Assembly: GCA_002070605.1 (NCBI GenBank)
Contig: MWDO01000017.1
Location: 1-53,044, forward strand
Length of the DNA stretch: 53,044 nucleotides
Direction of reading: 5' to 3'
Origin: Spirochaetes bacterium ADurb.Bin133
GTDB lineage: Bacteria; Spirochaetota; GWE2-31-10; MWDO01
The translations under genes were made by a program, and so were the position numbers. How positions within the stretch are numbered: the stretch's first letter is position 1; every line of letters begins with the position of its first letter. The notes under the pieces were generated by a model, which was not told the DNA's origin, ran no database searches, and was given only the letters and a program-made list of their open reading frames with translations. Positions 26,645 to 35,895 of the stretch are shown piece after piece.

Positions 26645-26890
26645 TTATACTCTTCTAATCTTCGTAATTTTAGAGTAGACGTCCTCTTGAAGCATAATTT
26701 CCATTCCAAATTTCTCGTTGTTTCGAGGACAGACTACGTTGATTTTTACTTTTCTGAATTCCGGAACTCTAACGTCTTTATTAATGTCGTTTGGAATGTG
26801 GTCGCGGTAAACGTCTACAGTTAGGAGATGTTTACGACCGCATATCGGGCATTTATTGATTTTAAAATCTTCCAATCCGTTTTGTATCAT
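26645..26890 (-). CDS. Small zinc-ribbon-like protein
   Basis: 81 residues. KCPICGRKH near residue 13 is a zinc-knuckle half-site, and VVCPRNNEKF near 52 supplies at least one more Cys, so a partial or non-standard zinc ribbon is likely. The remainder is charged (DVYRDHIPNDINKDVRVPEF). GGAGGGGA lies at ideal distance before the ATG, the strongest ribosome-binding site in this part of the window. It follows leuS by 19 bp on the same strand and is probably co-transcribed with it. Function unknown. Confidence 0.65.
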   Translation of the reverse strand: MIQNGLEDFKINKCPICGRKHLLTVDVYRDHIPNDINKDVRVPEFRKVKINVVCPRNNEKFGMEIMLQEDVYSKITKIRRV

Positions 26891-26909
26891 AATTATTCCC
26901 CTCCAAAAT

Positions 26910-32581: not shown

Positions 32582-33507
32582 GTGAATCCTATAGCGGTTG
32601 CGATTATGGGACCTACGGGCGTAGGCAAAACCTCCTTGTCGCTGGAACTTGCTCGGAACGACGGCGAGATTATTTCTGCGGATTCGATGCAGGTTTATAA
32701 ATATTTAGACGTTGGGACGGCTAAACCCGACGCTAAGGATAGAGATAAGGTTGTTCATCGCTTGATTGATATTATAACTCCGGACAAAAGATTTTCCGCG
32801 GCAGACTTTAAAAACTTAGCGGAAAGTTTTATATTTGAAATATCCAAAAAAAAAAGATTCCTTTTTTAGTCGGCGGAACCGGTTTGTATTTCAAATCTCT
32901 AATTAACGGTATGGTAGATATACCGCCGATACGTCCGGAAGTAAGAGAGAGCGTCTTACAATTATTCCAAGAAAACGGGCAGGAGTATATTTTTGATATT
33001 CTAAAAAATGTAGACGCCCAATATTCGGAGCGTATACATAAAAACGATAAACAGAGAACGATTAGGGCGCTTGAAGTTTATTATGGAACGGGGAAAAAAT
33101 ATTCCGATTATCTTAGCCTATCTAATAATAAGAATTCAATCAATTATGTTATAATCGTTTTGAATATTGAAAGAAAAATCTTATACGATAGAATTAATCA
33201 AAGAGTTCTAAATATGATTGATAACGGTTTAGTCGAAGAGGTTAAAAAAGTTTTATCGTTGGGATATAAGAAAACAGATCCGGGTATGAAAGGGATTGGC
33301 TACAAAGAAATAATAGAATATTTGGAAGGATCGCGCTCGTTAGACGACGCAATTAGCGAAATATGTAAAAATTCAAGAAGATATGCAAAAAGACAATTGA
33401 CTTGGTTTAGAAGCGTTTCGGAAGCGTTATGGGTTGATAATTTGGATCAATCAAAGGCTGTTCGACAAATAAAAGAGTTGTTGTCCGGCTATTTTAGGGA
33501 GAAATAA
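32582..33507 (+). pseudogene. miaA: tRNA dimethylallyltransferase, frameshifted at an A10 tract
   Basis: The protein is encoded in two frames: 32582 (GTG) to about 32855, and from there to 33507. The first part has the P-loop GPTGVGKTSLSLEL and ISADSMQVYKYLDVGTAKP, the second resumes with IPFLVGGTGLYFKSLINGMV and continues to a normal end with KRQLTWFR. Joining needs one extra A (or two fewer) in the ten-A run at 32846-32855, giving about 308 residues, the normal MiaA length. Both halves are otherwise intact, with no other disruption, so assembly error or transcriptional slippage that restores the frame is as likely as true loss. MiaA makes i6A37 in tRNAs reading UNN codons. Confidence 0.85.
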
Positions 33508-34511: not shown

Positions 34512-34607
34512 ATGCCCTCTGTAAAAAAGAAAAGAAGAGCAAAAATTGCTAAGCACAAAAGAAAGAAAAAGCTTAGAAGAAATCGACACAAGAATAAGAA
34601 GAAGTAG
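34512..34607 (+). CDS. AURKAIP1/COX24-domain small basic ribosomal-type protein
   Basis: A 31-residue peptide, MPSVKKKRRAKIAKHKRKK followed by KLRRNRHKNKKK, more than half Lys and Arg. From memory it matches the AURKAIP1/COX24 domain proteins of Bacteroidetes and spirochaetes (M-P-S-x-K-K-x-K...K-H-K-R-K-K-x-L-R-x-N-R-H-K), which are thought to be ribosome-associated. It is preceded by AAGGA and lies 13 bp after the ManC-like gene, so it ends the yicC operon. A 17-bp AT-rich hairpin follows at 34626. Confidence 0.85.
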   Translation: MPSVKKKRRAKIAKHKRKKKLRRNRHKNKKK

Positions 34608-34625
34608 TTTTATTCAGAAGTAAAT

Positions 34626-34663
34626 ATTTATACAGAGAATTCAAACGAATTTTCTGTATAAAT
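34626..34663 (+). terminator. Long AT-rich hairpin after the COX24-like gene
   Basis: ATTTATACAGAGAATTC and GAATTTTCTGTATAAAT pair over 17 positions (one G-U) around loop AAAC. There is no T tract behind it, so it may protect a 3' end or terminate weakly rather than act as a classical terminator. Confidence 0.5.
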
Positions 34664-34782
34664 AATCTAAAAGAGAGCTTTGCCGCGGTTTAATTTCTAC
34701 CCCTCAATATCTCTTCAATAGATTCGCAAGCTTGTTTTTGTTAAAAAATTTGTAAAAAATATTCGCTAAAAGTCTAAAATAT

Positions 34783-34811
34783 TTGACTTTTATGGATATT
34801 TTTATTATAAT
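34783..34811 (+). promoter_or_regulatory. Consensus promoter of a candidate small RNA
   Basis: TTGACT (34783-34788), a 17-bp spacer, then TATAAT (34806-34811). No open reading frame follows; the nearest + strand gene is 1.4 kb away. Confidence 0.8.
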
Positions 34812-34817
34812 ACAGAC

Positions 34818-34893
34818 GATAGGAATCTGATTCTTTCAGATTAGCGGATGAACCGAGTTTATTCCCCTCCCCAAATGGTTCGTCCGTTTTTTA
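34818..34893 (+). ncRNA. Candidate small regulatory RNA with C-rich loop
   Basis: A predicted transcript of about 75 nt. Hairpin 1: AATCTGA (34824-34830) with TCAGATT (34836-34842). Hairpin 2: CGGATGAACC (34845-34854) with GGTTCGTCCG (34877-34886), 10 bp with one G-U, followed by TTTTTT: an intrinsic terminator. Its 22-base loop contains TTCCCCTCCCC, complementary to GGAGG/GGGGA ribosome-binding sites. No protein is encoded. Promoter, structure and terminator support an RNA gene; function is inference. It ends head-on against the parvulin gene's stop. Confidence 0.68.
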
Positions 34894-35895
34894 TTAGTAC
34901 AGCGTTACGTCAAACTTTTCTTTCAATTCCTTAATAAGGCGTTCTCTTGTATTTTCTCTAGCGTTGTTTTTATATTCGGATCTTAGAAAGTAATCAGCTT
35001 TGATCTTTATTTCTTCGCGCGACAATTGTTTGGGAGCAATTTTTTGAATTATCTTAAAAATATAAATTCCGTTTAAAGTCTCGAACGTTCTTTTAACTAA
35101 ACCTTCCGGAGAAATTTTTAAAGTTTCAATAATTTCTTCGGATAAGCTTTTTTGAGTTCTGGGGTCGTCGAAAGCGATAGCCCCGACAAATCCTTTTTCA
35201 TCGTTATTCGCGGTTATCATATCGTCGGAATATTTTTTTACCATTTCCTCAAAAATCCCGCCGTTTAAAAGCGAGTCCAAGCATTTGACGGAAGCCTTGA
35301 TTTTTATCTCTTTTTCATTTTGTTTTAAAAGTTTTCCGTTAGCGTCGTAAAATGAAAAATATATCATCGATATAACCGCGCCCTCTTTTTCTTCAAATAA
35401 ATCGGGGCGTTTATCGACGAGTTCGGCTATCTCTTTATCCGTAGGGACGTAAAACTGCGTATTTAGTTTTTCTACTTCGTTATTAATATACTTGGATATC
35501 CACAATTGTTTCTTTACGTATTCTTTGTAAGTTTTCATCGACACGTTGTTAGATAATAAGGCTTGTAAAAATTCTTGATCGCTTACGTCCTTAGCGTCTT
35601 TATTTGTTTTGGCGGCGTAATACGCTTTATCGTCTCTAATTTGATTAACAATTTCGAGTTCCGTCGGCTCTTCTATATAAATTTTAGCTCCAAGATAGAG
35701 AAGCGAATCTTCGATTAGTATATTTCGCGCCGCGTCAAAGGATATTTTATATAAATTTGCCGTTTTTTTTACTTCCGGTTCAAGAATAACTTCGTTCCCA
35801 ACCTTGGCGCTAATTTTAGTTTTTATAATTATCTCTGCGGAAAGAGCGCCGGTTATTGTTAAGATAAAGGATAAAATAATCAGTCTTTTCTTCAT
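34894..35895 (-). CDS. Exported parvulin-type peptidyl-prolyl isomerase (SurA/PrsA-like)
   Basis: 333 residues with a signal peptide (MKKRLIILSFILTITGALSA). The N-terminal chaperone-like region is followed by a parvulin domain at about residues 170-290: EEKEGAVISMIYFSF, then FEEMVKKYSDDMITANNDEKGF, VGAIAF, and TFETLNGIYIFKIIQ, the usual order of strands and helices. It probably assists folding of outer-membrane and periplasmic proteins. Two ACAATTGT palindromes lie inside it (35022 and 35502). It is divergent from tig with repeat element 6 between them, so two folding-factor genes share this intergenic region. Confidence 0.88.
   Translation of the reverse strand: MKKRLIILSFILTITGALSAEIIIKTKISAKVGNEVILEPEVKKTANLYKISFDAARNILIEDSLLYLGAKIYIEEPTELEIVNQIRDDKAYYAAKTNKDAKDVSDQEFLQALLSNNVSMKTYKEYVKKQLWISKYINNEVEKLNTQFYVPTDKEIAELVDKRPDLFEEKEGAVISMIYFSFYDANGKLLKQNEKEIKIKASVKCLDSLLNGGIFEEMVKKYSDDMITANNDEKGFVGAIAFDDPRTQKSLSEEIIETLKISPEGLVKRTFETLNGIYIFKIIQKIAPKQLSREEIKIKADYFLRSEYKNNARENTRERLIKELKEKFDVTLY

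Follow-up and report, generated by a model that had tools for sequence, protein, structure and literature searches.

In Helicobacter pylori, the small RNA (sRNA) RepG uses the C/U-rich loop of its terminator as a seed on G-rich stretches of mRNA leaders (PMC8295292). The alpha-r14 or 'cuckoo' sRNAs of alphaproteobacteria, NfeR1 among them, fold into three hairpins, each of which presents CCUCCUCCC unpaired (PMC10746234). DinR, an Hfq-dependent sRNA of enterobacteria, arises by processing of the dinI mRNA at its 3' end (PMC10907235), and in Campylobacter jejuni the sRNAs CJnc230 and CJnc170 control flagellar gene expression, CJnc230 having an anti-Shine-Dalgarno (anti-SD) stretch (PMC11187230). 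In the papers that we searched, no sRNA was described as acting on flagellar assembly genes and cell-division genes together. Here we describe a locus in a 53,044-nucleotide contig of Spirochaetes bacterium ADurb.Bin133 (the window, meaning the whole stretch of DNA that was analyzed) that probably encodes such an RNA, a stand-alone trans-acting sRNA that would block translation of flagellar and division mRNAs and lower both together.

Architecture and conservation of the locus

The unit opens with a promoter, TTGACT-17-TATAAT, at 34783..34811 on the + strand (TTGACT at 34783-34788, a 17-nt spacer, TATAAT at 34806-34811), which matches the consensus at 11 of 12 positions. By itself such a promoter is unremarkable in AT-rich DNA, with 35 promoter-like sites in 10 kb against 32.7 expected. 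It is of the housekeeping type, unlike a flagellar sigma-28 promoter. From the -10 box and the T-run, which set its 5' and 3' ends, we infer transcription of an RNA of ~75 nt (34818..34892, + strand). The predicted fold begins with a 7-bp hairpin, AATCTGA-TTCTT-TCAGATT (34824..34842, +), and continues with a terminator hairpin (34845-34886, +) whose 10-bp stem, CGGATGAACC/GGTTCGTCCG, encloses the 22-nt loop GAGTTTATTCCCCTCCCCAAAT; a T6 tail, TTTTTT (34887-34892, +), completes this element (34845..34892). Within the terminator hairpin lies a conserved 17-nt loop seed, TTATTCCCCTCCCCAAA (34859..34875, +), which is predicted to pair with flagellar and division SD regions. The fold has an energy of -24.4 kcal/mol, compared with -13.3 +/- 2.5 in dinucleotide shuffles (z = -4.45; matched by 0 of 200). 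An initial annotation made from the letters of the window had described the promoter, both hairpins, the loop and the T-tract, and each is present as it claimed. With its own promoter, a short non-coding unit and an intrinsic terminator, the locus thus has the predicted features of a trans-acting sRNA gene, and its U6-7 tail is compatible with Hfq dependence. A conserved peptide is unlikely, because the reading frame from an ATG in the terminator stem ends within a few codons in four of the six homologues described below.

On the 3' side, the sRNA adjoins a convergent gene for a PPIC-type peptidyl-prolyl isomerase (34894..35895, - strand; Pfam Rotamase_2, 1.8e-6), as it does in all six genomes. 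The other flank holds a small COX24_C-like gene (34512-34607) with a Pfam match slightly under the cut-off. Directly 3' of that gene is a long AT-rich inverted repeat, ATTTATACAGAGAATTC...GAATTTTCTGTATAAAT (34626-34663, +), which could be the terminator of its operon. Elsewhere in the window, what is apparently a dispersed palindromic repeat, GGGGAGCG...GCATATGCGTC, occupies intergenic positions at ~15849, 16053 and 36123, and also occurs at loci L458 and L459. The miaA gene (32582-33507, +) is split into two open frames of 95 and 207 aa; these match positions 1-57 and 66-242 of the IPP transferase model, consecutive parts that point to a frameshift or an assembly error near 32869-32884.

Homologous units are present in five further genomes of the same order (G002, G003, G004, G005 and G008), for three families in all. 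Two of them (G005 and G008) came from a DNA search, and the rest were recognized by inspecting the 3' side of the isomerase gene; all five lie 3' of that convergent gene, which is constant among the loci read while the gene upstream of the sRNA varies. A TTGACT-like -35 element recurs upstream of four of them, as TTGACT in G003, G005 and G008 and as TTGACA in G004. In an alignment of the six, both sides have changed in 4 of the 10 pairs of the terminator stem and 98.3% of cells remain paired, whereas pairing falls to 19-55% when the arms are slid as a control. The sequence CCCCTCCCC is identical in all six, window included, and ATTCCCCTCCCCAAA in five, G004 having AACCCCTCCCCAAT. Five of the six, all but G004, have a predicted 5' hairpin, whose sequence differs considerably among them. 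The initial annotation had staked its proposal on conservation of the stems and C-rich loop in relatives, and across six genera the terminator stem covaries around an invariant CCCCTCCCC.

The constant position raises the question of whether the unit merely terminates transcription, as a conserved 3' element that belongs to the convergent isomerase gene or to the operon upstream and regulates nothing in trans. We consider this quite improbable. In each of the six genomes the unit does adjoin the isomerase gene directly on its 3' side, and it does end in a good terminator, but its T-run is on the strand opposite that gene, a promoter and a second hairpin stand upstream, and a plain terminator with a changing stem does not retain a 9-17-nt loop. 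A loop that stays fixed on a changing stem is the pattern that a base-pairing seed produces. The combination of promoter and structure, conserved in five other genomes, is far beyond chance.

Beyond these six, no relatives emerged from the searches that we ran. Rfam 15 gave no family match for the unit at the gathering score, the whole window yielding only a tRNA, and a relaxed Rfam search of 34600-34950 returned only chance matches. A covariance model applied to 393 Spirochaetota genomes placed the six known loci at 60-79 bits (E <= 5.2e-11), scores that are high by construction, since the same six loci went into the model; all other matches had E >= 4e-5, and none of the 393 genomes contained a further convincing member. 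Among the matches outside the order (G342, G269, G234, G214, G012 and others), the nine strongest proved on inspection to be plain terminators or coding sequence with the C-rich loop absent, and three from outside the Spirochaetes in a scan of named genomes (two archaeal, one Rhizobium) do not form the hairpin and fit chance. Comparing the 151-bp region with the DNA of 60 relatives produced mostly promoter-like AT-rich matches, the only full-length homologues being those of G005 and G008. No further sRNA appeared when CCCTCCCC followed by T6 was sought in the 393 spirochaetes and 50 loci were folded, and a dedicated search in G006 and G007 yielded no convincing candidate. These two of the order's nine genomes are missing a recognizable copy and carry the isomerase gene in another setting; G001, a fragmented assembly from the window's genus, lacks both the sRNA and the neighbor gene. 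On the strength of the sequence comparisons, we conclude that the sRNA is real and forms a new family in one order of Spirochaetota.

Pairing of the terminator loop with ribosome-binding sites

In the mechanism that we propose, the terminator loop UUAUUCCCCUCCCCAAA would act as a seed, with UUUGGGGAGGGGAAUAA as its ideal partner, on the G-rich SD regions of a defined set of mRNAs. The complement of the loop is TTTGGGGAGGGGAATAA, and the loop is complementary to the SD regions of ftsZ, rsmH, mraY, fliE, fliF, fliI, fliQ, flhA, flhF and flgJ. A pattern search for the core of the loop complement before start codons returned fliE, fliQ, fliF, fliI, fliL, flgD, flgJ and flhA, along with a flbD-like gene, rsmH, mraY and ftsZ; various further genes matched as well, among them a coiled-coil gene and gyrase-type subunits. 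Most of these names come from reading the sequences, and ten key flagellar and division genes of the window's genome (G000) were checked by Pfam. Consecutive Watson-Crick pairs number 14 at rsmH in G003, 13 at ftsZ in G005 and G008, and 12 at fliI and rsmH in G000, and the complementarity reaches past the SD into non-SD flanks.

As background we used ~430 kb of G000 with 388 called genes and smaller samples from other genomes, and computed for each start region the energy of a duplex with the 17-nt loop. A simple script called the genes and picked their starts by SD strength, the same rule applying to all. Pairing at or below -16 kcal/mol is found for 9 of 24 flagellar and division genes and for 11 of 364 others (p = 3e-7); leaving out the four genes behind the choice of contigs, the counts are 5 of 20 and 11 of 364 (Mann-Whitney p = 0.0013). 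The advantage persists when SD strength is corrected for (p = 0.001) and when strong-SD genes alone are compared (p = 6e-5). G003, G004, G005 and G008 point in the same direction, their contigs having been picked for containing matches. With five genomes taken together, none of 200 shuffled loops separates the two gene classes as well as the real one, and of nine placements of the U in the C tract the real one performs best. The best eight pairings among the 388 genes are at fliI, ftsZ, rsmH, fliE, fliF, flhF, a zinc-ribbon gene and fliQ. The RNA is thus predicted to have a conserved seed complementary to the translation initiation regions of several mRNAs.

Any SD that contains GGAGG could in principle pair with a C-rich loop, which raises the prospect of a global action, with the RNA mimicking the 16S tail and dampening translation at ribosomes or SDs generally rather than governing a regulon. 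We regard this as highly improbable, since the ordinary genes of G000 have AAGGAG, AGGAGA or GGAGAA sites that pair poorly with the loop and the pairing preference is for one functional group. With ordinary genes using such sites, GGGAGG does not serve as the general SD in G000. We also considered an altered anti-SD for this organism and rejected it, ordinary genes having canonical AAGGAG/GGAGG sites.

The initial annotation had proposed an anti-SD loop and named two partners. Specific pairing at flagellar and division genes supports the first idea as an interpretation, with a predicted target set much wider than those two. One partner, a site placed at 26891-26909, is real and among the best candidates: the 81-aa zinc-ribbon-like gene (26645-26890, -) is preceded on the - strand by TTTTGGAGGGGAATAATTATG, and at its ribosome-binding site is the predicted target GGAGGGGAATAA (26893..26904, -), with 12 consecutive Watson-Crick pairs, an energy of -21.1 kcal/mol and seventh place among the 388 sampled genes. 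The other, AAAGGGGG at 2387, exists but pairs only weakly with the loop (-13.0 kcal/mol, about 45th of 388 sampled genes), and we rejected it as a main target.

Two uncharacterized protein families have comparable sites. GGGAGGG- or GGGGGGG-type SD sites precede a ~235-aa family with no Pfam match (L300:11841-12548 in G000; L182 in G005) and a ~190-aa secreted-looking family (L155, L267, L292), in two and three genomes, respectively, and both families may belong to the same regulon. In the sampled parts of the window's genome, a gene for a 171-aa protein (MKNKKHLFHFIVSES...) occurs in three near-identical copies (L294:14626-15141, L296:4779-5294 and L299:7957-8472) with the same upstream AAAAGGAGAAAA; these make up a multi-copy family that is perhaps mobile.

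The preferred reading is therefore one of a trans-acting repressor. Its flagellar assembly targets would be fliE, fliF, fliI, fliQ, flhA, flhF and flgJ, and its division-cluster targets rsmH, mraY and ftsZ; a few additional targets would include the window's zinc-ribbon gene. Because the predicted sites cover the SD, pairing in the cell should block initiation, and we infer repression from the position of the sites, as with DinR on ftsZ (PMC10907235) and NfeR1 (PMC10746234). With these ribosome-binding sites covered and translation repressed, one RNA would lower motility and cell division together.

G-rich sites in genomes without a detected copy

G007 and three genomes from outside the order (G010, G012 and G017) likewise have G-rich sites at ftsZ or fli genes; in these four, covariance, pattern and folding searches, with a dedicated search for G007, detected no such sRNA. 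Several spirochaete families beyond the order, again with no C-rich-loop sRNA detected, have a G ribbon of the GGGGAGGGG type where ribosomes would bind ftsZ, fliF, fliE or fliI (L360-L389 at ftsZ starts, L390-L419 at fliI starts, L437/L436 in G012, L432/L433 in G017 and L420 in G010). G013 and G025 have no excess of G-rich sites at flagellar and division genes, so such sites are not a fixed habit of the phylum. The sites may predate the sRNA or may also serve another regulator. Either counterpart sRNAs were missed in G007, G010, G012 and G017, or the sites serve a further reader and the sRNA joined later. Sites without a detected sRNA lower our confidence that the sRNA explains them; its existence is unaffected.

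These genomes bear most directly on an explanation in which the sRNA is real and pairs with ribosome-binding sites, and the G-rich flagellar and division sites exist for another reason, such as an RNA-binding protein (CsrA reading GGA, for example) or a lineage habit of SD use; the sRNA would then act on few sites or have exploited them later. Besides the GGGGAGGGG-type sites at ftsZ, fliF, fliE or fliI in G007, G010, G012 and G017, there is a precedent in Bacillus, where CsrA-FliW controls flagellin (cited in PMC11607428). We judge this explanation rather unlikely, given that the fit of the loop beats 200 of 200 shuffles with the U in the exact place, that complementarity continues into the non-SD flanks and that G013 and G025 lack the excess.

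Spirochaete flagella are located inside the cell body, and flagellar assembly and division therefore plausibly need coordination. Because one RNA has a fixed seed and both gene sets have ribosome-binding sites that match it, a motility-division link can be tested directly. That ftsZ and fli genes in other spirochaetes also have G-rich sites suggests a code of wider reach, perhaps one to be sought in cultivable species. We offer more tentatively, as something we doubt more than we believe, that much of Spirochaetota shares one post-transcriptional regulon, in which flagellar and division mRNAs have a common GGGGAGGGG ribosome-binding site and a C-rich-loop sRNA, in this order the family described here, couples motility to division, other spirochaetes having an unrecognized counterpart or a protein reader. 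Control of spirochaete flagella is incompletely understood, and Borrelia is without the usual sigma-28 (PMC11607428).

Comparison with described small RNAs

Repression by an anti-SD loop is a known kind of mechanism, and what appears new is the predicted regulon of flagella and division. RepG, from a different phylum and with no sequence relation to the spirochaete sRNA, also has a C/U-rich terminator loop as its seed, a likeness of mechanism only. It reads a variable homopolymeric G-repeat far upstream of the ribosome-binding site in one operon, tlpB-hp0102 (PMC8295292), whereas the sites predicted here are the SD regions themselves, at many flagellar and division genes. Like the alpha-r14 RNAs, the spirochaete family combines an ultraconserved anti-SD loop motif with variable stems, and RNAs of the NfeR1 type silence at the translation initiation region (PMC10746234). 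Unlike them, it has two hairpins rather than three, a single CCCCUCCCC motif, displayed by the loop of the terminator, and a different set of predicted targets. CJnc230 carries its motif, CCUU, on the single-stranded linker that joins two stem-loops, and the sequences are unrelated; the available portion of that report does not mention division genes as targets of CJnc230 or CJnc170 (PMC11187230). The predicted action on ftsZ resembles that of DinR and DicF, where the sRNA covers the ribosome-binding site of ftsZ and prevents division (PMC10907235). Unlike DinR, the RNA described here would be transcribed as an independent gene from a promoter of its own, and its predicted targets include the flagellar genes as well.
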